64,000 nucleotides of DNA from an uncultured Prevotella sp. (GTDB taxonomy: Bacteria > Bacteroidota > Bacteroidia > Bacteroidales > Bacteroidaceae): positions 22,558-86,557 of the forward strand of contig OMXO01000023.1 in assembly GCA_900315035.1 (NCBI GenBank), written 5' to 3'. The notes under the pieces are model-generated. The model had not been told where the DNA came from, made no database searches, and saw only the letters and a program-made list of their open reading frames with translations. Of this stretch, positions 161-50,155 are shown piece after piece. Position numbers and translations under genes: made by a program. How positions within the stretch are numbered: position 1 is the stretch's first letter; the number at the start of each line of letters is the position of its first letter.

Positions 161-193
161 TATAGTTTTATGTTTGATTTTGCAAATTCGGCA

Positions 194-201
194 CAAATTT
201 A
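194..201 (-). promoter_or_regulatory. -7 promoter box for the ROK kinase gene
   Basis: The minus strand reads TAAATTTG, matching the Bacteroidota -7 consensus TAnnTTTG, 33 bases before the start codon at 160. No convincing -33 element was identified. Confidence 0.5.
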
Positions 202-265
202 GTAAAAAACCTCTATTTACCACCCTTTTTTACGGAAATTAACCATTCTTTCCGAATATTTTTTG

Positions 266-273
266 TACCTTTG
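266..273 (+). promoter_or_regulatory. -7 promoter box for the LysE gene
   Basis: TACCTTTG matches TAnnTTTG. Only 8 bases separate it from the ATG at 282, so a message from this box would have almost no 5' leader. Confidence 0.6.
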
Positions 274-281
274 CACCCGTT

Positions 282-944
282 ATGCCATTTCATGTACCTA
301 TTAATATATTGGATTTCATCTTCAAGGGGATGATGATCGGGGTGATAGCCAGTGCTCCGATGGGGCCTGTCGGTATCCTTTGTGTACAGCGTACACTTAA
401 CAAGGGTCGCTGGTATGGTATGGCTACCGGTCTGGGGGCTGCAGTGAGTGATATCATCTATGCTGGCTTTGCAGGCTTCGGTATGTCGTTTGTCATGGAT
501 TTTATCACCAATACACAGAATCGTTTCTATCTGCAGCTGGTGGGTAGCGTGATGCTGCTCGGCTTTGGTCTCTATACCTACCGTTCCGACCCTACGCGTA
601 AGATGCACCAGTCGGGCCAGCAGAAGGGAACCATCTGGTATAATGCGTGGACGGCCTTTCTGGTGACGTTCTCCAATCCGCTGATCATCTTCCTGTTCCT
701 GGCGATGTATGCCCAGTTTGCGTTTGTGCTGCCTAACCATCCTTTCGAGATGCTGGTAGGTTTTGCCAGTATTGTGGGCGGTGCCTTGCTCTGGTGGTGG
801 GGGCTGACCTGGCTGGTGGATAAGATCCGTACGAAGTTTGATACTAATGGTATCAAGATTATCAATCAGATCATCGGTGTGGCCGTGATAGTCGGATCGG
901 TTATTATGTTGTTGGGCACAACAACCAATTTGCTGAGATTTTAG
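282..944 (+). CDS. LysE-family amino-acid/metabolite exporter
   Basis: The 220-residue protein is almost wholly hydrophobic with about six predicted membrane segments. It begins with the LysE/RhtB signature: FKGMMIGVIASAPMGPVG at about residues 14-31, then a cytoplasmic CVQRTLNKGR loop. The family exports basic or neutral amino acids and related solutes across the inner membrane; the substrate here cannot be told. The ATG at 282 gives the usual short N-terminus. An ATG at 330 has a better ribosome site (AAGGGG), but starting there would cut the first helix. DUF4924 follows after 3 bases, so the two are probably cotranscribed. Confidence 0.85.
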   Translation: MPFHVPINILDFIFKGMMIGVIASAPMGPVGILCVQRTLNKGRWYGMATGLGAAVSDIIYAGFAGFGMSFVMDFITNTQNRFYLQLVGSVMLLGFGLYTYRSDPTRKMHQSGQQKGTIWYNAWTAFLVTFSNPLIIFLFLAMYAQFAFVLPNHPFEMLVGFASIVGGALLWWWGLTWLVDKIRTKFDTNGIKIINQIIGVAVIVGSVIMLLGTTTNLLRF

Positions 945-947
945 ATT

Positions 948-1493
948 ATGTTTGTAGCACAAGAGTTAAGAAAGAAGAATATTGCCGAATATCTGCTGTA
1001 TATGTGGCAGATAGAGGACACGATACGTGCCTTCGACTGTTCGCTGTCGAGGATCAAGCGTGAGTATGTGGAGCGTTTCGATTTCTCGGAGGAGCAGAAG
1101 GAAGAGGAGACCGACTGGTTTGGCAACCTGATCAGGATGATGAATCAGGAAGGCTGCAGGGAGAAGGGACATCTGCAGATAAACAAGGTGACGATGCAGA
1201 TGCTGATTGAACTGCACCAGCAGTTGCTGCAGTCGCCCAAGTTCCCCTTTTATAACACGGAGTACTATAAGGTGCTGCCGTTTATCGTGGAACTGCGTAA
1301 TCGTGGGGCGAACAAGGAGGAAAACGAGATTGAGACCTGTTTTAACTCGTTGTATGGGGTGATGATGCTCCGTCTGCAGAAGAAGGATATCTCGCCCGAC
1401 ACGCAGCATGCCGTGAAGGAAATCAGTACCTTTATCGGTATGCTCTCTGACTATTACAAGAAGGATAAGGAGGAAGGATTGAAATTTGAATAA
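948..1493 (+). CDS. DUF4924 family protein
   Basis: A 181-residue soluble protein with no signal peptide. It is rich in charged helices and starts FVAQELRKKNIAEYLLYMWQ, the pattern I associate with DUF4924, a Bacteroidota-restricted family without known function (family match from memory). It is predicted to be mostly alpha-helical and cytoplasmic. It lies 3 bases after the LysE gene, and its end abuts rfbD, so a LysE-DUF4924-rfbD transcript is likely. The surroundings do not point to a specific role. Confidence 0.75.
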   Translation: MFVAQELRKKNIAEYLLYMWQIEDTIRAFDCSLSRIKREYVERFDFSEEQKEEETDWFGNLIRMMNQEGCREKGHLQINKVTMQMLIELHQQLLQSPKFPFYNTEYYKVLPFIVELRNRGANKEENEIETCFNSLYGVMMLRLQKKDISPDTQHAVKEISTFIGMLSDYYKKDKEEGLKFE

Positions 1494-1494
1494 T

Positions 1495-2352
1495 ATGAAT
1501 ATATTGATAACGGGCTGCAATGGCCAATTAGGAAACGAGATGCAACTGCTGGAGAAGGAGAATCCCCAGCATACCTATTTTAATACGGATGTGGCTGAGC
1601 TCGACATCACCGACCAGGCTGCTGTGGAGACATTCGTGAGCGATCATGAGATCGACGGTATCGTGAACTGTGCCGCCTATACGGCTGTAGATAAGGCTGA
1701 GAGCAATAAGGAACTCTGCACGACGCTGAACACGGTGGCACCCGCCTATCTGGCTGCTGCCGTTGAGAAGCGTGGGGGATGGATGATCCAGATATCAACA
1801 GACTATGTGTTCAACGGCACGAAGCACACACCTTATGTGGAGACAGACACGCCTTGTCCTGACAGTGTGTATGGTTCGACGAAGCTGGCTGGTGAGTTGG
1901 GTGTGACGAAATTCTGCAAGCGCACGATGATTATCCGTACTGCCTGGCTCTATTCGACCTTCGGCAATAACTTTGTCAAGACGATGATACGTCTGGGGAA
2001 AGAGCGCCCTGAACTGGGTGTCATCTTCGACCAGATTGGTACGCCTACTTATGCGCGCGACTTGGCTGTGGCTATCTTTGAGGCTATCAAACAGGGTGTG
2101 GTTCCTGGTGTGTACCACTTTAGTAATGAGGGTGTTATCTCGTGGTATGACTTTACGAAGGCTATTCACCGTATTGCTGGTATCAAGGACTGCAGGGTGC
2201 GCCCCTTGCATACGGAGGAGTATCCTACGCCAGCCAATCGCCCTCACTACAGCGTGCTCGACAAGACGAAGATCAAGCAGACGTATGGCATCGAGATTCC
2301 ATATTGGGAGGATAGTCTTGCTGAGTGCATTAAACTTTTAGGCAAAGATTAA
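1495..2352 (+). CDS. rfbD: dTDP-4-dehydrorhamnose reductase
   Basis: A 285-residue short-chain dehydrogenase. The N-terminal MNILITGCNGQLGNEM is the Rossmann NAD(P)H loop; ISTDYVFNG and the YGSTKLAGE catalytic Tyr/Lys block are typical of RmlD. It reduces dTDP-4-keto-L-rhamnose to dTDP-L-rhamnose for surface polysaccharide. An in-frame TTG at 1486 would add three residues and overlap the previous gene; the ATG at 1495 fits family N-termini, with AAGGAGGAAGGA about 16 bases upstream. Its pathway partner rfbA is about 8.6 kb away on the other strand, so the rhamnose genes here are not a compact rml cluster. Confidence 0.93.
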   Translation: MNILITGCNGQLGNEMQLLEKENPQHTYFNTDVAELDITDQAAVETFVSDHEIDGIVNCAAYTAVDKAESNKELCTTLNTVAPAYLAAAVEKRGGWMIQISTDYVFNGTKHTPYVETDTPCPDSVYGSTKLAGELGVTKFCKRTMIIRTAWLYSTFGNNFVKTMIRLGKERPELGVIFDQIGTPTYARDLAVAIFEAIKQGVVPGVYHFSNEGVISWYDFTKAIHRIAGIKDCRVRPLHTEEYPTPANRPHYSVLDKTKIKQTYGIEIPYWEDSLAECIKLLGKD

Positions 2353-32677: not shown

Positions 32678-34861
32678 ATGGATACACATCAAAGCTTGAA
32701 GAATGTATTCTCGCATTTGGATAATAGAAATCTTAGTGCTGCTATAGTGGAACTGGAGAACTATCTCTCGGTCCATCCTCATCAGGTTAACTCCGACAGA
32801 CTGCATGCCCTTAAAACGGATTATCAGTTGATGGCTGATTATTGGAAACGTGGATTCAAAGACCCGCAATTGCCAGCACTCTACCAGTCGTTGTTGCAGC
32901 GCATGTATGTGCTCTGTGCCAATATCAGTAAGCATTATGGGTTAGGCCATTCGGCATTTATGTCCTCGGTATATATGCGTCTGAGGATGACTGCCCGCGA
33001 CTGGTCGCCACAGAATATCCGCGAGGAACTGGAGGCTTTTGTCTCTGAGACGGCTCTTTTGGAACTGGAGCCAGAACATCTGCGTAAGCCTAAAATGCAG
33101 GAGCTTTATCGGCAGCATCAGCATCAGATGAACGTATTGTTCGATTATGTCTATACTTCCGATATCTGGAGTGACGGCAAAGCAACAGCGATGGAAGAAC
33201 TATTATTGTCGCCGACGGTAGATAGCAACGACCAACAACTGATAGTAAGTGCAGTCATGCTTTCGCTATTGGAGCATTTTGATATTTCAAAGTTCCGTAC
33301 TCTGGTGCATGTATATCAGCAGGCTACAGACGAAAGGGTGCGACAAAGGGCACTTGTTGGATGGGTACTATCGCTTGACAGCCGTTTGGCCGTATCTGTC
33401 TATCCGGAACAGAAAGCCCTGGTTGACAAGCTTTTGGAGGATGAGAATTGCTGCAAGGAACTGGTGGAACTGCAGAAACAGTTTATCTTTTGTATTAATG
33501 CAGAGCAAGATACTCAGACCATTCAGCGGGAGATTATGCCCGACTTGATCAAGAACCAGAATATCCGTTTGACCCGAAACGGTATTGAAGAACAGGAGGA
33601 TAATCCAATGGAGGATATCCTTAACCCAGAAGCCCAAGAGAAGAAATTGGAGCAGCTAGAGGAGAGTTTCCAGCGGATGATGAACATGCAGAAGCAGGGA
33701 TCTGACATCTATTTCGGGGGATTCTCGCAAATGAAGCGTTTCCCTTTCTTCAACGAGCTGAGTAGCTGGTTCACACCTTTCTATATGAATCATCCGTCGG
33801 TAACCGATGCCATCGGTAGGCTGGAATCTGATAAGTTCGTGAACTCGATGGTTGAGAAAAGCCCGTTCTGTAATAGCGATAAGTATTCTTTTGTACTGGC
33901 TTTCAAAGAGGTCGCACAACATATTCCCAAGAATATGCTCGAGATGTTTAACAGGGGTGAGATTACCGTCAATGAGATTTCCCAGGAGGAGCAGGAGAGC
34001 ACGCTTTATATCCGCCGGATTTACTTGCAGGATCTCTATCGGTTCTTCAGGCTCTTCCCCCAACGGGCAGAGTTCGTGAATCCTTTCGATCGTGAAGAGT
34101 TACGTTATCTGTTCTGTGCCGATCCTATTTTCTCGAAGACCCATTTGGAAGCATCTTTTAATGAGATTGCTGCATTCCTGCTGAAACAGAAGCGTACAGC
34201 AGAGACTGCCAAGGTGTTGGCCAATTATGGGGAGGCCAGACGTGACTTCCAGTTCTGGATGATGGCTGGCTATCTCATCCAGCATCAGAAGGCAAATGCA
34301 TCATCCATGAATGTCGGTGATGATTTGTGCTGTTACGGCGAGGCGCTAAAACTGCAGCCTGAGAATGAGCGGGCTCTTGCTGGTTATGCCAGGGCTCTTT
34401 TTGCAAGAAGCCGTTATCAGGAGGCATTGAAAACCTATAATCTGTTGTTGACGATTAATCCCGATAAGAAGAGTTATCGACTGAATCGTGCAGTCAGCAT
34501 GACAAACCTTGGACAATATGCAGGAGCGCTGAAGGATTTGTACAGACTCGACTACGAGTCGCCCGACGATAAGAACGTGAGCCGAGTGCTTGCCTGGACG
34601 CTTGTCTGCGAGGGAAAGTATGAAGCGGCAGAGAAGATTTATAGTGAGTTGCTGAAAGGTGATACACAGTCCGACGACTTGCTGAACTATGGCTATTGTC
34701 TTTGGTTTAGCGGACATATTGATGATGCGGCCGACTGCTTCCATCGTTTCCTGAAAGAGACTGGTTGCCAGCCGCAGTATATTCTTGAAAACGAAGCCGA
34801 ACTGTTAAGAGAGAAAGGTATTACTGAGCCTGAGCAGCAACTGATGCTTTATATCCTCTGA
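32678..34861 (+). CDS. Large TPR-containing protein
   Basis: A 727-residue soluble helical protein. The C-terminal third holds tetratricopeptide-like repeats (YGEALKLQPENERALAGYAR, then LFARSRYQEALKTYNLLLTI, YEAAEKIYSELLKGD). The N-terminal 450 residues have no motif I can name and no signal peptide. TPR proteins scaffold complexes; the partner is unknown. An ATG at 32657 inside the previous gene is in frame and adds seven residues. The 3' end overlaps the convergent acyltransferase gene by 41 bases. Coupling to the lipoprotein gene suggests related roles (inference). Confidence 0.75.
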   Translation: MDTHQSLKNVFSHLDNRNLSAAIVELENYLSVHPHQVNSDRLHALKTDYQLMADYWKRGFKDPQLPALYQSLLQRMYVLCANISKHYGLGHSAFMSSVYMRLRMTARDWSPQNIREELEAFVSETALLELEPEHLRKPKMQELYRQHQHQMNVLFDYVYTSDIWSDGKATAMEELLLSPTVDSNDQQLIVSAVMLSLLEHFDISKFRTLVHVYQQATDERVRQRALVGWVLSLDSRLAVSVYPEQKALVDKLLEDENCCKELVELQKQFIFCINAEQDTQTIQREIMPDLIKNQNIRLTRNGIEEQEDNPMEDILNPEAQEKKLEQLEESFQRMMNMQKQGSDIYFGGFSQMKRFPFFNELSSWFTPFYMNHPSVTDAIGRLESDKFVNSMVEKSPFCNSDKYSFVLAFKEVAQHIPKNMLEMFNRGEITVNEISQEEQESTLYIRRIYLQDLYRFFRLFPQRAEFVNPFDREELRYLFCADPIFSKTHLEASFNEIAAFLLKQKRTAETAKVLANYGEARRDFQFWMMAGYLIQHQKANASSMNVGDDLCCYGEALKLQPENERALAGYARALFARSRYQEALKTYNLLLTINPDKKSYRLNRAVSMTNLGQYAGALKDLYRLDYESPDDKNVSRVLAWTLVCEGKYEAAEKIYSELLKGDTQSDDLLNYGYCLWFSGHIDDAADCFHRFLKETGCQPQYILENEAELLREKGITEPEQQLMLYIL

Positions 34862-35972
34862 TTTTATTGGAGATCTTTTCCTGAATCCAGTAGAGGGCGA
34901 GGGGCAACCCTACGCCTGCTATGCTGTATGCTATCCAGAAGAGGTCTTCTTGTGAATGCTCATGAATCACCATGTGGCAGCCTACCTGCCGGATGTTGAG
35001 GCCGTAATACCAGATTTTGAGCAGACTGACCGTCTTGTATGCTATGATGTGGAAGATAAAGATGTAAAGCGTGTGGTCGCCGATATAGGCCAGTGCTCTT
35101 TTGAGCCATCCTTCATGTCGGTCGAGCCATTGGCTGATGTTATAGGTCATCAGGAATCCTAGTAGGGCCGGAACGGGTAAGGATAGGAATTGAGTATAGG
35201 TAGAGCGCCAGTTCATGTTGGCTGTCAGGTATTTTGAAAAAAGGAACACGATGATGCCGAAGCCTACAGAGGTCCAGACGTAGGCATAGTGTCGGTTGAT
35301 GATGGTTTGGTAGCGTTCAACGAACTGCCGGAAAATAAAGCCGCAGCCGAAGAAGAAACAGCCCATCATGTCGCGATATCCACCTTGCACGAGGTTGACC
35401 ACCTTCAGTCCTTCATAAGTCTTCCAGGCGCAAAGCAGCAGCATGATGATGCAGACGAGGTATGGGATGGACTTCTTGCTTGTCATTGTCGTCTTGGAGA
35501 GAGCGACATCCAGCATCTTATATATAATAAGGTATAGGATGCTGGCCACGAAGAGTCCTCTGAAGAACCAGAAGGCACCACATAGGAACTGATCGTAACC
35601 TCCCATAGCTGTTATGATGTTCCAGAGGTTCTGCTGAATCTGATGCCAGGAGTAGGGGTGTGTCACACCGCCAGCCTCGTTGCCATATTGTTCGTTGAGT
35701 ACACCGATGGAGAACATCCAGTTATGGATGAGAAGGAAAAACACAGACCATTTCACGAAAGGCCAGTAGAGTCCCTTCACGCGTTTCTTCACGAAGGTTA
35801 CCTCGTCGTTCAGGTACTTCAGTGAGAAGAAATAGCCCGCTGTGATGAAGAATAAGGGCATGTGGAACTCGAAGATAAACTTGCAGAGCCATCCCGGCGC
35901 TTCGGCATGGGCGATAACCATCAGGATGATGGCAATACCTTTGCAGATGGATATGGTCGTGTTGCGCTTCAT
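34821..35972 (-). CDS. Membrane acyltransferase (acyltransferase-3 family)
   Basis: A 383-residue integral membrane protein with about ten hydrophobic segments. It starts SICKGIAIILMVIAHAEAPG (the ISxxKGIAIxLMVxxH pattern with the active-site histidine), followed by FEFHMPLFFITAGYFF. The family transfers acetyl or other acyl groups to surface sugars or lipids. It is the last gene of the minus-strand kdsA operon, 3 bases after the phospholipase-D-type gene, so envelope glycan or lipid modification is likely. It overlaps the convergent TPR gene by 41 bases. Confidence 0.88.
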   Translation of the reverse strand: MKRNTTISICKGIAIILMVIAHAEAPGWLCKFIFEFHMPLFFITAGYFFSLKYLNDEVTFVKKRVKGLYWPFVKWSVFFLLIHNWMFSIGVLNEQYGNEAGGVTHPYSWHQIQQNLWNIITAMGGYDQFLCGAFWFFRGLFVASILYLIIYKMLDVALSKTTMTSKKSIPYLVCIIMLLLCAWKTYEGLKVVNLVQGGYRDMMGCFFFGCGFIFRQFVERYQTIINRHYAYVWTSVGFGIIVFLFSKYLTANMNWRSTYTQFLSLPVPALLGFLMTYNISQWLDRHEGWLKRALAYIGDHTLYIFIFHIIAYKTVSLLKIWYYGLNIRQVGCHMVIHEHSQEDLFWIAYSIAGVGLPLALYWIQEKISNKIRGYKASVAAQAQ

Positions 35973-35975
35973 CTA

Positions 35976-37211
35976 CTAAATTAGGAATGTAAGCAGACTG
36001 CCGAGCCAGCCCTTGAACTTATGCCAGGCGTTCTGACTTTTTCGCCATTCTTCTTCCGTCATGTAGTCACACTTTTGCAAGTCTTGCATGAACCGTTCGT
36101 CGAGTTGCTTGGTTGTCTCGGGATCAATAGCCAGGGCGTTGATCTCATAGTCGTAGCGCAGACTGCGGCTATCGAGGTTCGTACTGCCGACGGTACAGAA
36201 GCGCCCGTCAACCATCATGATTTTAGAATGGTGGAATCCGGGGCGGTAGCGCCAGATATGGACGCCGCTCTTATATAGTTTACGCGTCTTCCTGAGTACC
36301 ACATCGGGCATGAGTGGCACGTCGTATTTCGATGAGATGAGGATATCCACTTTCACACCTCGTTTGGCGCAGCGCTTCAGAGCGTTCATGATAGAACGGG
36401 TAGGTACAAAATAAGGATTCACGATCTTAACGGAGTCCTTGGCATTGTCGAGGGCATGGACATAGAGGCGGCGCATAATCGCGGTGACGGTGCGAGGCTC
36501 GCGGTTGGCTATACCTATCATCTTGTTGCCGACAGGTTTACCCTGGAAGTATTTCGGGTCGCTGAGCTCCTCTTTTGTCACGTGCTTCCACATTCGGGCA
36601 AAGATAATCTGCAGCTCGTTAACGGCTGGTCCCTCGATACGGCAATGCATATCGCGCCATTCACCTACCTGTTCTGTGCCTACGATATAGTAGTCGGCCA
36701 CGTTCATGCCTCCTGTATAGCCTATCTCTCCGTCGATGACCACTATCTTGCGATGGTCGCGCGGCCAGATGTGGTTTATCCAGGGGAAGCGGATTGGGTC
36801 GAACTCGTAGATCTCGATGCTGTCGGCTCGTAGTTTGCGTAGGTGCTCTTTCTTCAGCGGCTTGTTGTTCGAGTCGTTCCCGAAGCCGTCGAAGAGACAT
36901 CTTACCTCCACGCCCTGACGTCGCTTTTCCCTAAGCAGGTCGTAGAGCAGATTGCCAATGGAGTCGTTTCGGAAGTTGAAGTACTCCATGTGGATGCTGC
37001 TTTTGGCCTGCCGGATGACTTCGAACATATCGGCAAACTTATCTTTGCCCGACATCAGCAGGTGAATCTTGTTGTGGTTTGTAAAACTGATGCCCTCTTG
37101 TCGCATCTCCTCTACAAAGAGTGAGTCGCTCGTCTGGGCATATCCATAGTGTGATATCAGCAGGAATAGCATGGTGACTATTCCTGCTGACCATTTTGAT
37201 GTTGTTGTCAT
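35976..37211 (-). CDS. Phospholipase D / cardiolipin-synthase-like protein
   Basis: A 411-residue protein with an N-terminal signal-like helix (about 8-26, ending YAQTS) and two PLD HKD motifs: DHRKIVVIDGEIGYTGG (His153, Lys155, Asp160) and HHSKIMMVDGRFCTVGSTN (His328, Lys330, Asp335). Both active sites are complete. Cardiolipin synthases usually have two N-terminal membrane helices; only one is visible, so it may be secreted or singly anchored and may act on lipids in the periplasm. Its ATG overlaps the stop of the upstream regulator (ATGA). Confidence 0.88.
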   Translation of the reverse strand: MTTTSKWSAGIVTMLFLLISHYGYAQTSDSLFVEEMRQEGISFTNHNKIHLLMSGKDKFADMFEVIRQAKSSIHMEYFNFRNDSIGNLLYDLLREKRRQGVEVRCLFDGFGNDSNNKPLKKEHLRKLRADSIEIYEFDPIRFPWINHIWPRDHRKIVVIDGEIGYTGGMNVADYYIVGTEQVGEWRDMHCRIEGPAVNELQIIFARMWKHVTKEELSDPKYFQGKPVGNKMIGIANREPRTVTAIMRRLYVHALDNAKDSVKIVNPYFVPTRSIMNALKRCAKRGVKVDILISSKYDVPLMPDVVLRKTRKLYKSGVHIWRYRPGFHHSKIMMVDGRFCTVGSTNLDSRSLRYDYEINALAIDPETTKQLDERFMQDLQKCDYMTEEEWRKSQNAWHKFKGWLGSLLTFLI

Positions 37212-40200
37212 TTACGGTGTTTGAGTCTGTATTCGAGCGGGGTCATTCCCATCTTCTCCCTGAAGATATTGATAAAGTTCTCAGCTGTCATGAAGCCGAT
37301 ATTCGTGGCCAGCTCGCTCATATTGATGTTTGTTTGTTTCAACAGGATGCATGCATGCTTCAGCCTGATGTCACGAATCAGCTCTGCTGGCGTTTTCGTA
37401 GTAAGGCTGCGCACTCTGTGGAAGAAGGGCACTCGGCCCATGCCCATGGCGCTGGCCATCTCCTCAAGACTGATCTGGCCTCGGCTCATGTTCTGCATCA
37501 CGTACTGTTCGATGTTCTTGATAAGTTGCTGATCCATGGCGTCGAGCATCGAGTAGTCCGACAGGTTCATCTCGCTCATCGCCTCTTCCTGCTCTACCTG
37601 AATGGTAGCAAGCTGGTTGGTAGCCTTCACAATCTTTGTATCGACGCGGTTCATCGGGTCGTCGGCATTGTCCTCTGCGCTTTGTGGCTTAATCTCGCCC
37701 ATATCGATGCTCTCTGTTGCAGTCGTCATACTTGAGTTGCGGTCTTCGAGCATGCGGGTTTCGGCACCTTCGATAAGGTTGCTGTTCACCTCGATAGGAC
37801 CGAGACCGAGCAGTTTGTTGAATCGCATGGTAGCATCCTGCAGGTTGAACGGCTTGGCCAGGTAGTCATCGGCCGAGAGGGTGATGTTCTGGTTGCGCAT
37901 GTCCTGCGGGGTGAGCATGCCTTCTGTCATCAGCACGAACTTGATGCGCTGGGTGTTGATGCTTGTCTTCAACTGGTTACAGAGGTCGCTACCTGTCATG
38001 CCAGGCATGTCCTGCTTACAGATTACGAGGTCGCATTGCATCTCGTCGAGGTCATCGGCGGCCTTCTCAATGTCGTTATAGGCATGGAAGTTATAGACAT
38101 ACTTGAAACGCGAGGTGGCGAACTTCAGGAACTCTTCGTTGTCGTCGATCATAACAACCGAGAACTTCATCGTTGGCGAGTCGAGGGCTGCTCTCGACGG
38201 TCTGGTAGCATCCGATGTCAAAGAGTGGCTTACAACATCTGGCAGGTCGATCTCTCCGCGTCCGTTGAGTTCCAGACGGTCGTGCACGGCATTCTTGGCT
38301 TTCTCCTCGGGGTTCTCCAGATTAGTCTGCATGTCGCTCACGCGGGTGATGATCTGCAGCATCTGCGAGTGGAGGGCGTTCAACTGCTCGCGTTCTTCGA
38401 GTGATTGCTCTTTCTCAGAGAGGTTACCGATAATCGATGTCATGCGTGCCATAGGCTGGCGCAGGTCTTCGCTGGCAGCCTTGATCTCTTCACGCTGCAT
38501 GGCCAGTTCTTCGATTACGGCTTTCTTCCTGGCCTTGATGACCGACAACTGCTTGATGCCGATACGCCAGAAATAGATGATTGTGGCAGCGATGAGTATA
38601 TAGGCCAGGATCATCCACCATGAGAGCAGCCAATGGCGCTCGATGGTGATGACAAGGGTGCGTTCCTGGTTGCTGACGGCACCCTCGGCGCTGATGGCTT
38701 TCACGTGGAGCGTGTATGAGCCGCTTGACAGGTCTTTGAAGGTGACACCGTGGGTCAGGGCATTACCGTTGCGCCAGTCTTCGTCCTTGCCTTCCATCCA
38801 ATACATGAACTGCAGGCGTTCGCTCTGGTTGTAGTTACCTGCGGCAAACTTGATGGTAAAGGAGTTCTGGTTATGACCTAACTCCAATTTGTTGGTCTCG
38901 TTAAGAGCCTGAGGCAGCACCACGCGATCGTCGTATTCGTGTCCAGTCAGAATTTCTTCCTCGCCGATATACAACTGGGTAAGCATCACGCGAGGCAGGG
39001 CTTCGTTTTCGTCTGAGGTGCGCTGGAACTCCCAGTTTACACCGTACAGTCCGCCCAGCAACACGTTACCGTCTTGTCTGGTCATGATGGCACCCGGGTT
39101 AAACTCGTTACTCTGCAGTCCGTCGGCTGTGGTGTAGTTATACAGACCGAAGTTGTTAGTTCCGTCCTCATGGTTACGTTGTACCACGATGCGGCTGACG
39201 CCACTGCTAGTCGATACCCAGATATTGTGGTTCTTATCCTCGGCGATACCGCAGATGTTATTGTTGCAGAGACCTTGCTTTTCGGTCAGATAGTTCAGGT
39301 CATCGTTCTCAAGGTTCAGAATGTTCAGACCTTCGCGGGTACCGATCCACAGCAAGCCACGAGAGTCTTGCAACACCTGGGTGATGAAGTTGTTCGTAAA
39401 CGACTTGTCGTTTGCTACGTTACCTGTCAGCACTTTCTTCTCAGTCGTCGAGAGGTTCAGCACGACAAGTCCTTCGGCCGTACCGATATAGAGGTTGTTG
39501 ACCTTGGCGTCTTTGTTATAGAAAAGGCTCGTGATGTTGTTCGTGTTCAACTTGCCGTTCTCGCGAGTGTATGACGAGAAGGTGTTCATCTTCGGGTTAT
39601 ACACTTGCAGACCACCGTTGGTGGCTATCCAGAGGTTGCCCACTTTGTCGGTACAGAGTGCATTGATATGGTCATCGATGAGCGTGGCCGTACTGTCCTT
39701 GGCCAGTGAATAGATGGTAGATGAGCCGTTCTTGATACGGGTAAGACCATTACGCTTCGAACCGATCCAGAGACTTCCTTCAGAGGTGACAGCCATTGTC
39801 GATACCTTCAGACTGGCCAGCGGACCGTCGTAGCCGATAACGCCTTGGTCGCTTGTGCCGTACCATACCTTGCCGTCGGCATCTTGTGCCATGGCCGTGA
39901 TGTCACCGATATGGTCAGAGCCGAAACGATAGATATACTTACCAGAGTAGGCAACGCCCGATTTCTCGGTGCCGACCCATATCAGGTCGGTATCGTCCAC
40001 ATAGACGCTCTGAATGCTGACGTTCTCCTTGATCCACTGGTTGTCGTTGATGTTTCGTGGCTGCACTTGCTCTGTCTCGTGGGTGTTGATGTCCATTTTG
40101 AGCAGTCCCAGTTGGTCGGAACCGATCCAGATGTTTCCGCTGCGGTCGCCAGCCATGCCGTTGATGTTGCGATCGACGCCCATGCCTTTCATGCCCAGGC

Positions 40201-40981
40201 GCTCGCCAATGCTGCTGTCCCAGGTGTTGCTCGTCTTGTTATACATGCAGAGCGTCCCCTGACCGTAGAGCCAGATGTTGTCCTGCTGGTCGGCAAAAGC
40301 CTTGAGCGACTTGTTCTTGCGAGAACTTACCGATGGTGCTGCTTCGGCAGCCCATACTGTATGCTGCTGATGCATGACGTCGCAGCATACTATGCGTCCG
40401 TCGTCATAGACGATGATGGCGCCGTCGCGGCATTCGCTGATAGAGCATACCACTCCCTGCGGCACGCCGTGCGCATCGTCGGTATAGCCGAACTCGAAGA
40501 GCAGTTGCTGCTGCTGGTTGTAGCAGACGACACCCTTGTTAGGAATGGCGCCCCAGAGGTTCTTGTGCTGGTCGATATAGACCACACTCGGAATCGTCTC
40601 GATACCCATGCGTGCAAAAGTCTGCTTCATGTCGCGTTCGAAAGTCTCTGTCTGGTGGTGATAGATACAGTAGCCCGAGGTTGTCTCTATCAGCAGGTTA
40701 CCGTCGAGCATTTCTTGGATCGAGATGATATAACTGTCGTTCAGCGATGAGCCGTCCTGCGAGTCGCTCTGGAAATTCCTGAAGGTATAGCCGTCGAATC
40801 GGTACAGACCGGCAGGCGTACCGAACCAGACGTAACCGCGGCCGTCTTTCAGGATACAGTTTACCTGACTGGATGTCAGACCGTCGCGCGCGTCGAGCGT
40901 CTTGAAAAGATAATCAGCAGCTGCTGCGAAGGGCAGTGCCAACAACATGATTATCAATAGTCTTTTTATCGTTTTCATCAT
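37208..40981 (-). CDS. Reg_prop/Y_Y_Y membrane regulator with AraC domain but no working phosphorelay
   Basis: A 1257-residue protein built like a hybrid two-component regulator. It has a signal peptide, two-component-regulator propeller repeats (many WIGT/WIATNGG motifs), a Y_Y_Y domain, one transmembrane helix (about 783-806), a short helical region, a receiver (938-1060) and an AraC-type HTH (about 1145-1257). Key residues are lost. The HisKA site reads SEDLRQP, with Glu838 where His is expected. Fewer than 50 residues lie where the ATPase domain should be. The receiver phospho-Asp is Lys989 (DLVICKQDMPG). The receiver Asp pair (946-947) and Lys1043 remain. It likely acts by conformation alone. 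It is cotranscribed with kdsA/kdsD. Confidence 0.88.
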   Translation of the reverse strand: MMKTIKRLLIIMLLALPFAAAADYLFKTLDARDGLTSSQVNCILKDGRGYVWFGTPAGLYRFDGYTFRNFQSDSQDGSSLNDSYIISIQEMLDGNLLIETTSGYCIYHHQTETFERDMKQTFARMGIETIPSVVYIDQHKNLWGAIPNKGVVCYNQQQQLLFEFGYTDDAHGVPQGVVCSISECRDGAIIVYDDGRIVCCDVMHQQHTVWAAEAAPSVSSRKNKSLKAFADQQDNIWLYGQGTLCMYNKTSNTWDSSIGERLGMKGMGVDRNINGMAGDRSGNIWIGSDQLGLLKMDINTHETEQVQPRNINDNQWIKENVSIQSVYVDDTDLIWVGTEKSGVAYSGKYIYRFGSDHIGDITAMAQDADGKVWYGTSDQGVIGYDGPLASLKVSTMAVTSEGSLWIGSKRNGLTRIKNGSSTIYSLAKDSTATLIDDHINALCTDKVGNLWIATNGGLQVYNPKMNTFSSYTRENGKLNTNNITSLFYNKDAKVNNLYIGTAEGLVVLNLSTTEKKVLTGNVANDKSFTNNFITQVLQDSRGLLWIGTREGLNILNLENDDLNYLTEKQGLCNNNICGIAEDKNHNIWVSTSSGVSRIVVQRNHEDGTNNFGLYNYTTADGLQSNEFNPGAIMTRQDGNVLLGGLYGVNWEFQRTSDENEALPRVMLTQLYIGEEEILTGHEYDDRVVLPQALNETNKLELGHNQNSFTIKFAAGNYNQSERLQFMYWMEGKDEDWRNGNALTHGVTFKDLSSGSYTLHVKAISAEGAVSNQERTLVITIERHWLLSWWMILAYILIAATIIYFWRIGIKQLSVIKARKKAVIEELAMQREEIKAASEDLRQPMARMTSIIGNLSEKEQSLEEREQLNALHSQMLQIITRVSDMQTNLENPEEKAKNAVHDRLELNGRGEIDLPDVVSHSLTSDATRPSRAALDSPTMKFSVVMIDDNEEFLKFATSRFKYVYNFHAYNDIEKAADDLDEMQCDLVICKQDMPGMTGSDLCNQLKTSINTQRIKFVLMTEGMLTPQDMRNQNITLSADDYLAKPFNLQDATMRFNKLLGLGPIEVNSNLIEGAETRMLEDRNSSMTTATESIDMGEIKPQSAEDNADDPMNRVDTKIVKATNQLATIQVEQEEAMSEMNLSDYSMLDAMDQQLIKNIEQYVMQNMSRGQISLEEMASAMGMGRVPFFHRVRSLTTKTPAELIRDIRLKHACILLKQTNINMSELATNIGFMTAENFINIFREKMGMTPLEYRLKHRK

Positions 40982-40997
40982 AGTGAATTATTTTCTG

Positions 40998-41945
40998 TTA
41001 TACCATACACGAATAGTGATCGACCACGCCGAGCAGGTGATTGTGCTCGTCGGTTACCAGCACCGAGTGTACTTTATATTTATTCATGATTCTCTGTATC
41101 TCTGTGATTTTGGTGTCGGGCCTGACAGCTTTTGGTGTGCGGGTCATGATGTCGCTGACCGTCCGGTCGAAGAATTCGGCCTGCCATTTCTCCATGGCGC
41201 GACGGATGTCGCCGTCGGTGATCAGACCGACAATCTCGCCGTTCACCTCTGCGATACCCAGTCCGAGTTTGCCCTTGCTCACGAGGATGATAGCCTCGCC
41301 CAGATGCATCTCTGGCGGCAGCACGGGCAGGTCGTCCTTGAACATCACGTCCTGGGCCGTGGTCAGCAGCCGCTTGCCGAGTTCTCCGCCCGGATGGAAC
41401 TGGGCGAAGTCGCGCGGCTGGAAGTTACGCTTCTCCATCAGGGCTATTGCCAAAGCGTCGCCCATGGCCAGCTGGGCCATGGTAGAACTGGTAGGTGCCA
41501 GGTTCATCGGACAGGCTTCTTTCTCTACACTGACGTTCAGGTGGCAGGTGGAGTATTTCGCCAGCAGCGATTCGGGGTTGCCGCTCATGCCGATAATGGG
41601 TATCTGCATGTGGAGCACCATGGGGATGAAGCGCAGCAGTTCGTCGGTCTGTCCTGAATTGGAGATGGCGAGCACCACGTCGTCGGAGGTCATTACGCCA
41701 AGGTCGCCGTGGAACACGTCCAGCGGATTGATAAAAAACGAGGGGGTACCTGTGCTCGACAGTGTGGCGGCTATCTTGGCTCCGATATGTCCGCTTTTGC
41801 CCACACCGGTAACGATAATCTTTCCTTTACACTCAAACATCAGTCTGACTGCCTCGTCGAAGCGCTCGTCGAGTTGCGGAATCAGCCCCATCACGGCTTC
41901 GGCCTCGTCCTTAAAGCATTGTATCGCGTATTCTCTGCTATTCAT
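40998..41945 (-). CDS. kdsD: arabinose-5-phosphate isomerase (KpsF/GutQ family)
   Basis: A 315-residue protein with an N-terminal SIS domain (IIVTGVGKSGHIGAKIAATL, AISNSGQTDELLRF, and the catalytic-loop SVEKEACPMNLAPTSSTM) and two C-terminal CBS domains (DGDIRRAMEKW and VHSVLVTDEHNHLLGVVD). It makes D-arabinose-5-phosphate from ribulose-5-phosphate, the first committed step to Kdo. It starts 4 bases after kdsA, whose product uses this metabolite, so the two act in sequence. Confidence 0.94.
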   Translation of the reverse strand: MNSREYAIQCFKDEAEAVMGLIPQLDERFDEAVRLMFECKGKIIVTGVGKSGHIGAKIAATLSSTGTPSFFINPLDVFHGDLGVMTSDDVVLAISNSGQTDELLRFIPMVLHMQIPIIGMSGNPESLLAKYSTCHLNVSVEKEACPMNLAPTSSTMAQLAMGDALAIALMEKRNFQPRDFAQFHPGGELGKRLLTTAQDVMFKDDLPVLPPEMHLGEAIILVSKGKLGLGIAEVNGEIVGLITDGDIRRAMEKWQAEFFDRTVSDIMTRTPKAVRPDTKITEIQRIMNKYKVHSVLVTDEHNHLLGVVDHYSCMV

Positions 41946-41949
41946 TTTC

Positions 41950-42735
41950 TTATTTCTCCTCGGTATAGTCCGTAGGTTTGATTAACTCTCTGACCAGCGC
42001 CTCGAGCTTGCGTAATTCGAGCATGTTGGCGGCATCGCTCAACCCCTCGTCGGGATTCGGATGCACCTCGAAGAAGTAGCCTGTGGCACCAAAGGCCTTG
42101 GCTGCCAGGGCCATCTGAGGCACGAAACGGCGGTCACCGCCCGTCTTGCCGTCGCTGCCTCCAGGGCGCTGCACGCTGTGGGTGCAGTCCATGATGACTG
42201 TCGGCACGAGTTCCAGCATGTCGGGAATGTTGCGGAAATCGACCACGAGGTTGTTATAGCCCATCATGTTGCCGCGCTCTGTCAACCATACATCCTTGGC
42301 ACCGGCCTCGCGGGCTTTCTCTACCGGATATTTCATGTCCTTGCCACTCAGGAACTGGGCCTTCTTGATGTTGACCGTCCGCCCGGTCTTGGCAGCAGCC
42401 ACAAGCAGATCGGTCTGACGGCAGAGGAAGGCGGGTATCTGGATGATATCGCAGACCTCGCCGACGGCAGGGGCCTGACAACTCTCGTGAATATCGGTCA
42501 GCAGGCGCAGACCGTACTTTGCCTTGACGTCGGCCAGCATCTGGAGTCCGCGCTCCAGTCCGGGGCCGCGAAACGAGCGGATAGAGGTGCGGTTGGCCTT
42601 GTCGAACGAGGCCTTGAAGATAATGTCGGTTCCTAACTTGGTGTTGATTTCCACCAACTTTTGCGCCACAGTGTCGAGCAGTTCGGCCGACTCTATGACG
42701 CATGGACCAGCTATGATCGTAGTCTTGTTACTCAT
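41950..42735 (-). CDS. kdsA: 3-deoxy-8-phosphooctulonate synthase
   Basis: A 261-residue DAHP/KDO8P synthase-type barrel. IAGPCVIESAELL at the N-terminus, FKASFDKANRTSIRSFRGPG (the KANRTS phosphate loop) and DCTHSVQRPGG are diagnostic for KdsA. It condenses arabinose-5-phosphate with phosphoenolpyruvate to Kdo-8-phosphate for lipopolysaccharide. It is the first gene of the operon kdsA-kdsD-regulator-PLD-acyltransferase. A -7 box at 42746-42753 lies 10 bases upstream of the ATG. Confidence 0.96.
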   Translation of the reverse strand: MSNKTTIIAGPCVIESAELLDTVAQKLVEINTKLGTDIIFKASFDKANRTSIRSFRGPGLERGLQMLADVKAKYGLRLLTDIHESCQAPAVGEVCDIIQIPAFLCRQTDLLVAAAKTGRTVNIKKAQFLSGKDMKYPVEKAREAGAKDVWLTERGNMMGYNNLVVDFRNIPDMLELVPTVIMDCTHSVQRPGGSDGKTGGDRRFVPQMALAAKAFGATGYFFEVHPNPDEGLSDAANMLELRKLEALVRELIKPTDYTEEK

Positions 42736-42745
42736 AATGATGATG

Positions 42746-42753
42746 CAAAAATA
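42746..42753 (-). promoter_or_regulatory. -7 promoter box for the kdsA operon
   Basis: The minus strand reads TATTTTTG, 10 bases before the kdsA ATG. It is a weaker match in an A-rich stretch. Confidence 0.45.
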
Positions 42754-42780
42754 AGAAATATATTCTATTCTGCCAAATTT

Positions 42781-45120
42781 TTAATCATTTTTAATCAGAT
42801 GAACATCGCGCTGGGGGAACGGAATCGAGATGCCGTTCTCGTACAGGGTATCATAGACACATTTTAGAACATCGCTGATGACATAGGATTTCTTCGGGGC
42901 ATCGGCCCACACGAACAGGTTGAAATTGACACTCGATTCGGCCATTTCCGAGCAGACGCATTTTACCTGCTTCGACTGGTCCATCCACCTGTGGTGAAGG
43001 TTGTTGAGCGCATCCTCCACGAGTGTCGTTACCTGTTTCAGGTTAGAGCCGTAGGCCACGCTGAAGGGCACCACGGCCAGCACGTAGCCGTGATTTCTCG
43101 TCAGGTTCTTATAGTTCTTCGTGAAGAGTTGTGCGTTCTGGAAGGTGATCACCTCACCGTAGAGCGACTCGACGACGGTCGATGTGTAACTGATAGAGGC
43201 TACCTTACCCATGCGGCCATCCACTTCGATCCAGTCACCTACCTTGATGCGGCCGGCCATCAGCGTGGCACCGTAGTAGATGTTCTCGATGATGTCTTTC
43301 GAGGCGAAACCGATACCAGTTGACAGACCGCCCGAGATAGCCAGCAGCCAGGCCACACTGATATGGAAGAGCGAGAGTGAGATCATCAGCCACACACCCC
43401 AGACGAATACCTGGATGACGTTCTTGCCCATCACCTCGCGTGAGGCGGCCGTCGAGGGGTCGCTGCTCTGGTAGTGCATGCGCAGCAGGGCCAGGATGGT
43501 GCGGGCAATCCAGCGGAAGAGGAACCACATCGTGATGACCATCGAGAGCTTCAGGATTGATACCTGCAGGTTCTCCAACTCGATGAAGTTGTATTTGAAG
43601 ATACGCCAGCAGAGCTCACTCAGGTTGAACACCTTGGCAGCCCAATAGATGCTCAGCATCACCGAGTTCACGCTCAGCGCTGGCATCACCACCTTCTCCA
43701 CGAAACTGTAGTGCCAGGTCTGGGTGACGGGTTTGGCCTCGAGCCGCTTCTTGATGGCGTAGAGCTCCAGATAGCGGGTGCCGCAGGTAATCGTGAGGAT
43801 ACACGTCAACTGCATGATCCACCAGATGAGCAGTTGCACGGCCAGCAGGGTGTAGCCCGACCATGAGCAGCCAACACTGGCGATGAACACCACGAGCGAC
43901 ACATAGGTGTAGAAGATGTCCGACTTCGGGATGTTCTGGTTGTGGCGCCTGATGACCACCCACTGCCAGATAGCGCAGGCGAGCAACACGGGCGGCAGTA
44001 CGATGTTGACTAGTTCGTTTGGTATCAGGATGATGCGACAGCCGATGACGATGAATCCCATTGCTATAAGCGGGGCGTAGATGCGGAAAGCCGAACCTAT
44101 CTGGTCGCCCTTCACGCGGAGCAGCAGCGAGATGAGAATCACGCCCAGCAGCCAGGCATATTCCACCAGTAGGTTAGAGGCCATGATGAGGAAGTTCTGC
44201 GACGAGTTGCCCATCAGCAGGCCTTGTATCAGGGCAAAGGTGATGGTCGTGGTAGCCATCGTGATGGCTGTCTGTTTGCGCTTGAAGTCCTCCGTCTTAT
44301 AGCGGCGCGGCAGCATGAACCTGAAGAAGAGCAGATTGAGTACGGTAGCCAGGACTACGTAGATAGCGATGGCGATGAACATACCGAATATCCATTGCGC
44401 GCTCCATTGCGAGTTGTCGTTGTTGTTGGTCGTGTATTTCTTCCTGACGGTCTCGGTCATCGTGTTCCAGCGCCGGCCGAGGTTGCTCAGCAGGGTGGGG
44501 TAACTGTCGCCACCGTTCACAAAGATGCTCTTCTGGATGTCGGTATAGCGCTTCTGGGCATAGTCGTTAAGTTCACTCAGCCGTTGTGCCGTCTGGTTGT
44601 AGTAGCGTATGTTGCGCTTCAGCATCTGCTGGTTGCGGGCCAGCGTGTTGCGGATGTTGCGGGCCAGCCTGAGGCATGAGTCGCGCCGGCTGCTGCCGTA
44701 TTTCGTGGTCATCATGTCGGGCATTGACTGCAGTCGTACGATGATGCTGTCGTAGCGCGCCAGGTCGGCCTGACTCTTTTCTAAGAATTGTGCGAAGGGC
44801 AGCTGTCGCTTGTTGAACTCGCGGTAGAGCTTGGTGGCCTCCTGACAGGCATAGGTCATGTCGAACACGTTCTCCGTCTGCTGCGAGTAGAGCATCAGCG
44901 CGTTCTGGTCGGCTTGCTTCAGCGTGAGCAGCAGTTGGGTAATCATCGTCTTCGTGAGTTCCTGACGCCTCGCCGAACGCACCGTCAACTCATTGTTGTA
45001 TTGCTCCAGCTCGGCCTGCAGGATGGTGAGTGTCTGTTCGAGATCCTTCTCCTTCAGCACGGCTCCCGCCTCGGCGATGAATGCCATGATGACGACAAAT
45101 GTCAGTAAGATACGTTTCAT
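42781..45120 (-). CDS. Large MscS-family mechanosensitive channel
   Basis: A 779-residue protein with a signal peptide (residues 1-20), a periplasmic helical/coiled domain (about 22-240), around ten membrane helices and a C-terminal MscS domain. The pore region reads ISGGLSTGIGFASKDIIENI and the beta domain GRIKVGDWIEVDGRMGKV. This is the size class of the MscK/YnaI-like channels that vent solutes under osmotic downshock. It has its own -7 box (45154-45161). It lies 45 bases downstream-side of the kdsA operon start but is transcribed toward it, so it may read through into kdsA. Confidence 0.9.
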   Translation of the reverse strand: MKRILLTFVVIMAFIAEAGAVLKEKDLEQTLTILQAELEQYNNELTVRSARRQELTKTMITQLLLTLKQADQNALMLYSQQTENVFDMTYACQEATKLYREFNKRQLPFAQFLEKSQADLARYDSIIVRLQSMPDMMTTKYGSSRRDSCLRLARNIRNTLARNQQMLKRNIRYYNQTAQRLSELNDYAQKRYTDIQKSIFVNGGDSYPTLLSNLGRRWNTMTETVRKKYTTNNNDNSQWSAQWIFGMFIAIAIYVVLATVLNLLFFRFMLPRRYKTEDFKRKQTAITMATTTITFALIQGLLMGNSSQNFLIMASNLLVEYAWLLGVILISLLLRVKGDQIGSAFRIYAPLIAMGFIVIGCRIILIPNELVNIVLPPVLLACAIWQWVVIRRHNQNIPKSDIFYTYVSLVVFIASVGCSWSGYTLLAVQLLIWWIMQLTCILTITCGTRYLELYAIKKRLEAKPVTQTWHYSFVEKVVMPALSVNSVMLSIYWAAKVFNLSELCWRIFKYNFIELENLQVSILKLSMVITMWFLFRWIARTILALLRMHYQSSDPSTAASREVMGKNVIQVFVWGVWLMISLSLFHISVAWLLAISGGLSTGIGFASKDIIENIYYGATLMAGRIKVGDWIEVDGRMGKVASISYTSTVVESLYGEVITFQNAQLFTKNYKNLTRNHGYVLAVVPFSVAYGSNLKQVTTLVEDALNNLHHRWMDQSKQVKCVCSEMAESSVNFNLFVWADAPKKSYVISDVLKCVYDTLYENGISIPFPQRDVHLIKND

Positions 45121-48613: not shown

Positions 48614-50155
48614 TTACTCCTTCCAGTTCTGCTTGATTACGGCATCAACCAGCTTCATGCCGACGGTGTTGTAGAGTTTCGTCGATGTGTAGTCGGGACT
48701 CTCGTCCATACCGGCAAAGTCCATGTAGATGATACCTACAGAGCCCGTGTGACTGCTCAGCCAGTCGATGGTCTTCTGGTTGGTGACGACGGCATTCTCA
48801 CGATAACTGTCGGAGAACGGAATGAGGTAGGCCGACGGATAGTTGATGACCCATGCGGGCTTCTCGGCGGTCATGTCGCGCTTGACAGAGGCCTCCAGCA
48901 TGCGGATAAGGGCCGCATCCTTGTTGGCGCGCGTGATGCCTTTCCAGTAGTCCTGCACCCAGAGCGGTGTCTCGCTGCCGTCGGCTGCGGTGATGTGGCC
49001 CTTCTGCTGCTGCTCCAGTTCCAGATAGGAATCCCAACCATAGCAGTAGCCGCCAAGCGGCTTGTCGGCATAGACCTCCTTCGAGAGCATCAGCACCTTA
49101 CCACGCATCTCGCCGACGCTAAGGCGGGCCTTGAAGTCGGCAAACAAACTCTTCAGTTCAGCACCATTGACAAGCGCGTTGAAGTCCTTGCCCCAGGCAT
49201 CCTTTTTCTCGGTGTTGCTTAGATCGATGGTCACCACGCAGAACTCCGAGGGGTTGTCGGCCAGGAACTGCTTCAGTGTCTTGAAGAAGTCGGCGACATA
49301 CATCTTGGTGCCGGCCATGCCGTGACTGCAGCGCAGCACGTAGTTCTTACCGTCGAGGTCGTGCTTAGGGCGCAGGTCGAACACGCGCACGCCAGCCTTC
49401 AACTGCTCCTTGATGGTCAGGTCCTGGCACTTGGCGGTCATCTCGAAGGCGAAGGCCAAGTAGGGGTTGTGCCAGCCCTCGGCCGTACAGGCATCGTGGC
49501 TGCCGGGCAGCGAGAGGTCGGCCACGAACCGGTCGTCCTTCAGTTGCTTCATCCACTGGCTGTTGTCCACATTCTTAGGCTTATAGTCGGCAGCATTGTA
49601 TTTATCCTTGTCGCCGCCGTTCTGCTCCAGCAGTGAGTTCAGCACCTCCTGCATCTCCTGGTCGGCGCGTTCCAGCAGCAACACTTGTCCGTCAACGCCC
49701 TTCACCGTGATCTGGTCGTTGGCATAGCTGGCCTCCCAGCTCTTCGGATAGCTTTGTCCGAAGTCGTTGACTAAGGTCATGCTCACCTGACCGTCGGCTG
49801 TCGATGTGTAGTTGAATTGGCCGTAGCCCAGGCTTCCATGCACCATGACCGGCTCCGTGTCATCGCGGAAGAAGCAGCGCTGCAGCGAGCCGAAGCCCTC
49901 AGAACTGAAGTCGTAGATATCGACCACCATGTCGTAGTCGGCCTTCTGGTTGCTACCGTCCTCGGCCATGGCTGTGCCCGTGGCGTCGTAGGCGCAGTAC
50001 CAGGTGCCGCTCAGTTGTCCGGCCAACGGTTCGGGGGTAGGGGTGGTGGCGTTATCTTCATTGTTGCACGATGTGAGCATCGCCATACTGCTGATGACGA
50101 TGGCGAGCATTCCTTTCAGGCGGGCGCTCGTCTTTCTTAATTCGATTGTTTTCAT
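48614..50155 (-). CDS. PI-PLC X-domain lipoprotein
   Basis: A 513-residue protein with a lipoprotein signal (MLAIVISSMAMLTSC, Cys30). An N-terminal beta-rich domain (about 45-165) precedes the catalytic domain (about 200-510). LSLPGSHDACT (His220), FDLRPKH (Arg262) and VLRCSHGMAG (His278) match the PI-specific phospholipase C X-box, with the two catalytic histidines present. It would cleave phosphatidylinositol-type or related phosphodiesters at the cell surface. Prevotella-group cells may face host or own inositol lipids; the true substrate is unknown. It is monocistronic. Confidence 0.85.
   Translation of the reverse strand: MKTIELRKTSARLKGMLAIVISSMAMLTSCNNEDNATTPTPEPLAGQLSGTWYCAYDATGTAMAEDGSNQKADYDMVVDIYDFSSEGFGSLQRCFFRDDTEPVMVHGSLGYGQFNYTSTADGQVSMTLVNDFGQSYPKSWEASYANDQITVKGVDGQVLLLERADQEMQEVLNSLLEQNGGDKDKYNAADYKPKNVDNSQWMKQLKDDRFVADLSLPGSHDACTAEGWHNPYLAFAFEMTAKCQDLTIKEQLKAGVRVFDLRPKHDLDGKNYVLRCSHGMAGTKMYVADFFKTLKQFLADNPSEFCVVTIDLSNTEKKDAWGKDFNALVNGAELKSLFADFKARLSVGEMRGKVLMLSKEVYADKPLGGYCYGWDSYLELEQQQKGHITAADGSETPLWVQDYWKGITRANKDAALIRMLEASVKRDMTAEKPAWVINYPSAYLIPFSDSYRENAVVTNQKTIDWLSSHTGSVGIIYMDFAGMDESPDYTSTKLYNTVGMKLVDAVIKQNWKE

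Follow-up and report, generated by a model that had tools for sequence, protein, structure and literature searches.

The window analysed here, a 64,000-nucleotide stretch of contig OMXO01000023.1 (positions 22,558 to 86,557, forward strand) from assembly GCA_900315035.1 of an uncultured Prevotella sp., contains an open reading frame (ORF) at 37208..40981 on the minus strand whose 1257-amino-acid (aa) product is probably a one-component membrane regulator that works independently of phosphate and arose from a hybrid two-component system (HTCS) through the removal of phosphotransfer. The losses of all phosphorelay steps are fixed in the orthologues read and are under purifying selection. Because the phosphate-passing parts are all lost, yet relatives among rumen-type Prevotella preserve the gene with very little change inside an envelope-building operon, the comparison suggests that the regulator may carry outside signals to DNA purely mechanically.

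The ORF reading and translation give a single chain with the HTCS feature set: a periplasmic sensor, a membrane helix, a DHp region, a receiver and an HTH_18 domain, with the reservations that the HisKA match is sub-threshold and the helix was read by eye. A sequence-only reading of the same DNA had listed a propeller sensor, Y_Y_Y, membrane helix, receiver and AraC domain in this ORF, and translation and Pfam (for the helix, inspection) bear it out. The features, all on the minus strand, are:

37208..40981, minus strand: HTCS-derived membrane regulator without a kinase, 1257 aa (ORF, translation, Pfam, 168 distinct orthologues)
39002..40909, minus strand: Reg_prop beta-propeller sensor, residues about 25-660 (PF07494, E 3e-33)
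38642..38836, minus strand: Y_Y_Y domain, residues 716-780 (PF07495, E 2e-10)
38564..38635, minus strand: membrane helix, residues about 783-806 (seen by eye as a hydrophobic run in the translated protein)
38330..38497, minus strand: degenerate DHp hairpin, residues 829-884, with ASEDLRQPM replacing the H-box (HisKA E 0.052; hhalign)
38468..38470, minus strand: Glu838, at the phospho-acceptor His site (Asp, Glu, Asn and Gly counts over the orthologues)
38168..38317, minus strand: short spacer in the place of the missing HATPase_c, residues 889-938 (length in 168/168 orthologues)
37835..38158, minus strand: receiver (pseudo-receiver), residues 942-1049 (PF00072, E 4e-13; hhalign E 2e-26)
38015..38017, minus strand: Lys989, at the phospho-acceptor Asp site (Lys in 168/168 orthologues)
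37940..37951, minus strand: alpha3-beta4 loop QRIK, residues 1011-1014; S/CHIP in most Bacteroides HTCS, according to the part of PMC11253607 drawn on here
37226..37459, minus strand: HTH_18 AraC-type DNA-binding domain (by sequence), residues 1175-1252 (PF12833, E 1e-14)

Reg_prop, Y_Y_Y, Response_reg (942-1049), HTH_18 (1175-1252) and SGL, a propeller-like match, score above the Pfam gathering threshold, while HisKA at 829-884 (E 0.052) is under it. The best sequence matches of the sensor among solved structures are PDB 4a2l and 3v9f, both HTCS sensor entries, and the C-terminus matches PDB 12aw, whose chain is named a hybrid two-component system protein. The domain anatomy (Pfam, with the helix by eye) is thus that predicted for a sensor and a DNA-binding domain joined in one membrane protein.

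Three parts of an HTCS are missing: HATPase_c, the phospho-acceptor His of the DHp domain and the phospho-acceptor Asp of the receiver. No Pfam match to HATPase_c was found in the protein at E<=1, and only 49 residues (890-938) occupy columns that hold 183-228 in ten intact homologues. In the receiver, DLVICKQDMPGM, Lys989 stands where Asp is expected, and in the H-box, ASEDLRQPM, Glu838 stands where His is expected. Profile-profile alignment (hhalign) against ten intact HTCS places Lys989 on the phospho-acceptor Asp with E 2e-26, and Glu838, in register, on the phospho-acceptor His with E 9e-5 and a probability of 59% (one profile searched). These ten intact rows, from the same and related genomes, were hand-chosen, five of them from the regulator's own genome, and their sites were read by eye; His and Asp are both present in 10/10. 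The domain combines a receiver fold by sequence (PF00072, E 4e-13) with the lack of a phospho-Asp, and is in that sense a pseudo-receiver; to our knowledge, a pseudo-receiver inside an HTCS scaffold is unusual.

How widely are these losses shared? In a first search of 40 genomes, six of the 23 others of the same genus had a full-length orthologue, at 62-86% identity. In a larger genus sample the C-terminal part was matched at E<=1e-30 in 156/398 genomes, and in a family sample 9/399 genomes matched, all of the same genus (1/30 genera); both samples were tool-drawn, included the regulator's own genome, and had the best four first-look candidates per genome scored. Relatives on named contigs (best 80 of 218) carry titles that mostly name Prevotella or Prevotellaceae as uncultured, many of which mention the rumen or ruminants, and include Xylanibacter ruminicola Ga6B6. 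The 216 loci read, drawn from 128 of the 156 matching genus genomes, the best 80 of 218 named loci and a few family-sample loci, comprise 168 distinct sequences; in the remainder a gene already counted recurs through another collection. The set excludes G145 (a frame of 118 aa, where a contig ends), and counts on the HTH side are out of 167, since one sequence (L181) leaves the frame before the HTH.

In the 168 distinct orthologues the His site is Asp in 137, Glu in 28, Asn in 2 and Gly in 1 (Asp or Glu in 165/168), the next position (839) is Asp in 110 and Glu in 58, and the receiver Asp site is Lys in all. The stretch between columns 886 and 940 measures 51-60 residues in 168/168, which leaves no room for an ATPase; a domain hidden between residues 890 and 938, which the sequence-only reading had singled out for checking, is rejected by this length and by Pfam. 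No orthologue with intact sites was seen (0/168). The claims that the kinase ATPase is absent, the His replaced by Glu838 and the Asp by Lys989, and the loss complete and consistent, all hold: the same losses, aligned against the intact HTCS, are found in 168 distinct orthologues. The Asp-to-Lys change, the missing ATPase and the His replacement recur beyond chance. Four genomes whose matches came in pieces (G068, G163, G262 and G265) were considered as intermediates and rejected, as they have Lys at the Asp site like the others; the open frames of G068, G262 and G265, at 1295-1345 aa, are longer than the window's 1257-aa protein, and the draft genome G163 is the source of L181, whose frame is split before the HTH and which still has Lys at the Asp site.

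Purifying selection was measured as the ratio of nonsynonymous to synonymous rates (dN/dS, Nei-Gojobori type) over 25 non-overlapping sister pairs, 85-97% identical in protein sequence; for each segment, pairs whose dS was saturated or very low were dropped, leaving 20-24 usable. The median is 0.039 for the propeller, 0.036 for the DHp, 0.034 for the receiver and, lowest, 0.020 for the HTH (residues 1145-1257); only the linker between receiver and HTH is looser, at 0.121. Low values in all domains indicate that sensor and output are both maintained, and argue against decay and against an idle sensor. A sequencing error, an assembly error or a pseudogene, to which the missing domain itself and the one split-frame orthologue in 168 might have pointed, is extremely unlikely given the same losses in 216 loci and 168 distinct sequences, the low dN/dS and the fixed synteny described below; a local error or pseudogene is rejected on the last two counts.

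Another possibility is that the protein stays at the membrane and binds DNA constitutively, as a repressor might, and that its sensor has ceased to signal. In Bacteroides HTCS an S/CHIP-DK contact ties the DNA-binding domain to the receiver, and substitutions in the motif permit DNA binding without phosphate (PMC11253607, in part). In the regulator family the S/CH pair is found in 0/168 orthologues and the fourth position is Lys in 163/168; on the side of the DNA-binding domain, Asp1150 and Lys/Arg1189 are kept in 167/167 in-frame rows. That the pair is missing throughout would suit a constitutive binder, as would the reports that S/CHIP substitutions free HTCS fragments to bind DNA and that a natural deviant, BT2391, represses its target genes (PMC11253607, in part). 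Constraint on the sensor is nevertheless about that on the receiver (0.039 versus 0.034), and in 133 of the 636 propeller columns a single residue accounts for at least 98%, which makes a silent sensor quite improbable.

Not everything in the pseudo-receiver is lost. The sequence-only reading's statement that every phosphorelay step is lost is right for the His, the ATPase and the phospho-Asp, but not for the rest of the receiver's active site: the first acidic Mg residue is Asp in 168/168, the active-site Lys is kept in 168/168, the switch Thr in 165/168 and the beta-5 Tyr in 163/168. The second acidic (Mg-binding) residue drifts (Asp 106, Ser 33, Asn 21, Thr 8; n=168). By the genetic code, Asp (GAY) to Lys (AAR) takes at least two base changes; this, and the invariance of Lys989 while the neighbouring second Mg residue drifts, make the Lys look selected and not merely tolerated. 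Could the receiver then be controlled in some other way? Some other covalent change in the pseudo-receiver, or a ligand bound to it, might set the activity (acetylation of Lys989, Ser/Thr phosphorylation, a small molecule). Known pseudo-receiver modes include covalent modification, ligand binding and altered multimerisation, redox dimerisation among them (PMC12632262, in part), and Cys988, beside Lys989, is kept in 165/168; the sequence indicates no particular modification, however, and the large conserved sensor would be redundant, so that we regard this explanation as improbable.

The ancestry of the regulator is indicated by a sensor-region tree of 39 hand-chosen rows, in which its eight representatives form one branch (support 100/100), grouped (99/97) with a clade made up of the intact HTCS L204-L206 and the T2 and T3 proteins described below. 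Because its branch is sister to a clade holding intact HTCS, the regulator shares common ancestry with HTCS and is, on sequence evidence, derived from a hybrid system, as the sequence-only reading had it. Three findings go beyond that reading: the operon context, the family-wide fixation of Lys at the Asp site, and a second ATPase-less HTCS in the same genome. The genes beside the closest intact HTCS encode glycoside hydrolases of families GH31 and GH5 (L204, L205) and an arabinofuranosidase (L206); since these adjoin the intact kin, the ancestor was probably a plant-glycan HTCS.

The genus holds several other degenerate relatives of this kind. T3 (L198, G015:C90, 722-3832, minus strand), of 1036 aa, has propellers, Y_Y_Y and HTH_18, with no HisKA, ATPase or receiver match and, by eye, a DHp-like stretch NEELRQP in which Glu takes the place of His. 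T2 (L203, own genome, G000:C114, 2407-5502, minus strand) has propellers, Y_Y_Y, a membrane helix and HATPase_c (E 4e-16), with no HisKA, receiver or HTH match, a complement of the regulator's domain set. A third type, with a periplasmic-binding-protein (PBP) sensor, is represented in the own genome by L266 (G000:C107:26802-28991; 3-2192, plus strand), which has HisKA with its His, a receiver with its Asp and HTH_18, and no HATPase_c match; its family is matched at E<=1e-150 in 37/150 genomes, and the sequences read (L266, L350-L368) retain, in 20/20, the His, the Asp and an [S/C]H[I/V]P motif, with a short spacer between DHp and receiver in all. These PBP-type proteins may receive phosphate in trans. 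As they keep both residues, loss of the ATPase alone does not entail loss of the His and Asp, and the regulator family has, by sequence, gone further. Three more own-genome proteins (L262, L264 and L265; Y_Y_Y below its cut-off in L264) combine propellers, Y_Y_Y and HTH_18 with no DHp, ATPase or receiver match at E<=0.01; their existence means that such a sensor can join an AraC domain without a relay.

T2 carries exactly the domain that the regulator is missing, which raises the possibility that the regulator works with a partner, forming mixed dimers with T2 or with a kinase-bearing HTCS and receiving ATPase-driven conformational input in trans. T2 is matched in 92/398 genus genomes, and the regulator is present in 85 of these 92 (2x2 table 85/71/7/235; Fisher p 2e-34, uncorrected for ancestry). 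Ten of the T2 matches, found in frames of 1369-1419 aa, perhaps represent other proteins; setting these ten genomes aside gives 78/82. Shared ancestry within the genus could produce the same association, though. Since 71/156 regulator genomes lack a T2 match at E<=1e-20, we rejected an obligate partnership with T2 as the principal explanation. In addition, the tree groups T2 with the intact HTCS and not with the regulator family, the own-genome T2 lies outside the regulator's operon, adjoining a GH31 gene and a LacI-like ORF (the latter by eye), and without a phospho-acceptor ATP could drive shape changes only. We consider a partner of this sort unlikely.

The favoured explanation, a regulator acting alone and without phosphate, would call for a mechanical route from a sensor dimer to a DNA-binding dimer. 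A dimer of the propeller and Y_Y_Y domains would sense something periplasmic; the resulting change would cross the membrane along the helices and reach the DHp hairpin, retained for dimerisation and transmission only; and the receiver, with its invariant Lys, would act in docking and spacing, fixing where the two AraC-type domains sit on DNA. This would amount to the transmission of a periplasmic signal to DNA without phosphate that the sequence-only reading had proposed. A more speculative addition, possible but doubtful, is that Asp/Glu838 (plus Asp/Glu839) and Lys989 form a permanent acid-base pair, and that a salt-bridged contact between DHp and receiver, at the old phosphotransfer interface, carries the sensor's movement. 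The idea is supported, not proven, by the conservation of opposite charges (165 and 168 of 168), by the two or more base changes between Asp and Lys, and by the PBP-type family, which lacks the ATPase and keeps His and Asp in 20/20.

Several points weigh against a phosphate-free mechanical regulator. The S/CH pair is also missing in the closest intact HTCS, L204-L206 (QSIP, CDIP and RNIP), so that its absence is weak evidence on mechanism; loss of this latch was rejected as an innovation of the regulator family, and the change from Pro to Lys at the last S/CHIP position (163/168) looks to be the sole latch change specific to it. The Thr, Tyr, Lys and first acidic residue of the receiver, which are usually linked to phosphorylation-driven switching, are still conserved, and a purely inert spacer would not need them. 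Ligand sensing, target sites and DNA binding are all things that we infer, and the dimeric DHp hairpin is presumed from the hhalign result (E 9e-5, probability 59%). Finally, the split frame of L181, the G163 orthologue, means either a broken copy or an assembly error.

The surroundings of the gene suggest what it may control. Its neighbours, with their presence in 100 orthologous loci, are:

41950..42735, minus strand: kdsA, 3-deoxy-8-phosphooctulonate synthase, upstream partner (TIGR01362 above cut-off; 97/100 loci)
40998..41945, minus strand: kdsD-type (KpsF/GutQ subfamily) arabinose-5-phosphate isomerase, directly upstream (TIGR00393 above cut-off; 99/100 loci)
35976..37211, minus strand: cardiolipin synthase of the phospholipase D (PLD) type, with a 4-nucleotide (nt) overlap with the regulator's end (TIGR04265 above cut-off; 100/100 loci)
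34821..35972, minus strand: acyltransferase-3 family protein, downstream and less constant (PF01757; 55/100 loci)
42781..45120, minus strand: MscS-type channel, upstream of kdsA and less constant (PF00924; 69/100 loci, though some loci perhaps do not extend that far)

The genes run kdsA, kdsD, regulator, PLD-type cardiolipin synthase, and the regulator lies between kdsD and the PLD gene in 99/100 loci; the isomerase is below the cut-off of the NCBIfam KdsD equivalog model. The three loci without kdsA (L105, L137 and L170, the last also without kdsD) start near or inside the gene. Between kdsD and the regulator the gap is about -4 to 91 nt (99 loci). Among 20 genomes without the regulator (hand-chosen, mostly complete and non-random), the PLD gene directly follows kdsD in 18 (gap about -13 to 122 nt); the gaps are extrapolated from tblastn ends. 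Either the regulator gene joined an envelope operon that was already in place, or other genomes have lost it from there; insertion is preferred because the gene is seen in one genus only. From the company that it keeps, its likely role is a control tied to the state of the outer membrane: KDO (3-deoxy-D-manno-octulosonic acid) and lipopolysaccharide (LPS) on one side, cardiolipin on the other.

A match to TTTG-N20-TATTTTTG lies upstream of kdsA at 42746-42777 (minus strand). It fits the Bacteroidetes promoter pattern, and transcription of kdsA-kdsD-regulator-PLD may start at this putative promoter, despite the preceding mscS. Matches to TTTG-N18..23-TAnnTTTG occur upstream of kdsA in 50/96 loci with the regulator and 8/19 without; the match is uninformative as a clue to the regulator's target. 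Two observations stand apart. The best NCBIfam match of the regulator (37211-40981, minus strand) is the PorZ model, below its cut-off (83.6 of 260 bits) and named for a type IX secretion system (T9SS) protein delivering anionic LPS; the likeness is probably only shared propeller ancestry, though suggestive beside KDO genes. Farther away, 48614-50155 (minus strand) encodes a PI-PLC-X domain protein with, by eye, a lipoprotein-like start.

The family serves as a natural experiment on the minimum that a two-component scaffold requires for signalling: the catalytic steps are gone, a state fixed in many species, while the sensor, DHp, receiver fold and DNA-binding domain are strongly selected. One genus offers a graded series (the regulator; the PBP-type proteins, with the ATPase lost and His and Asp kept; T2, with the ATPase kept and the output lost) in which mechanical signalling through DHp and receiver could be tested. 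If the proposed role is true, an HTCS-type regulator is linked to LPS-core and cardiolipin synthesis rather than to glycan foraging.

Among known systems, the HTCS of Bacteroides, such as BT4663 and BT4124, are laid out in the same order, from propellers and Y_Y_Y through membrane helix, DHp and receiver to the AraC-type domain; unlike them, the regulator lacks the ATPase, phospho-His and phospho-Asp, and lies in a KDO/cardiolipin operon, not beside glycoside hydrolase genes. BT4236 comes closer, with Gln at the His site and, its authors suggest, a phosphorylation-independent mechanism; it shares with the regulator a replaced phospho-acceptor His and an altered S/CHIP, but these two changes are all that is reported for it in the part of PMC11253607 drawn on here, whereas the regulator has also lost the ATPase and the Asp, clade-wide. 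In aspartate-less receivers, too, the phospho-Asp is replaced and the first acidic residue, the Lys and the Tyr/Thr pair are mostly kept; basic residues are rare at their Asp site (Arg, Lys and His together make up 4% of the replacements; PMC4395418, in part), whereas in the regulator Lys is fixed. A pseudo-receiver can bind a DHp domain, as in ShkA, or be controlled by ligand or redox state (PMC12632262, in part). The pseudokinase DivL (His to Tyr) likewise has a replaced phospho-acceptor His and a DHp kept for a non-catalytic role, but it retains its ATP-binding-type domain, and its response regulator, DivK, is a separate protein (PMC4211667, in part).

As a predicted membrane-anchored DNA-binding protein the regulator also resembles the transmembrane transcription regulators (TTRs), and with its receiver would be a "hybrid TTR"; hybrid TTRs are described as recent and not conserved at genus level, whereas the regulator is found in 156/398 genomes of one genus, and the part of that account drawn on here gives no case with all catalytic residues replaced (PMC10269533). 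Among the titles and abstract openings listed in searches of the openly licensed PMC literature, none described the regulator or an HTCS lacking His, ATPase and Asp together. Single losses are already known; judged by those listings, what is new is that the loss is complete, clade-wide and selected, with Lys fixed at the Asp site and the gene fixed in its KDO/cardiolipin operon.

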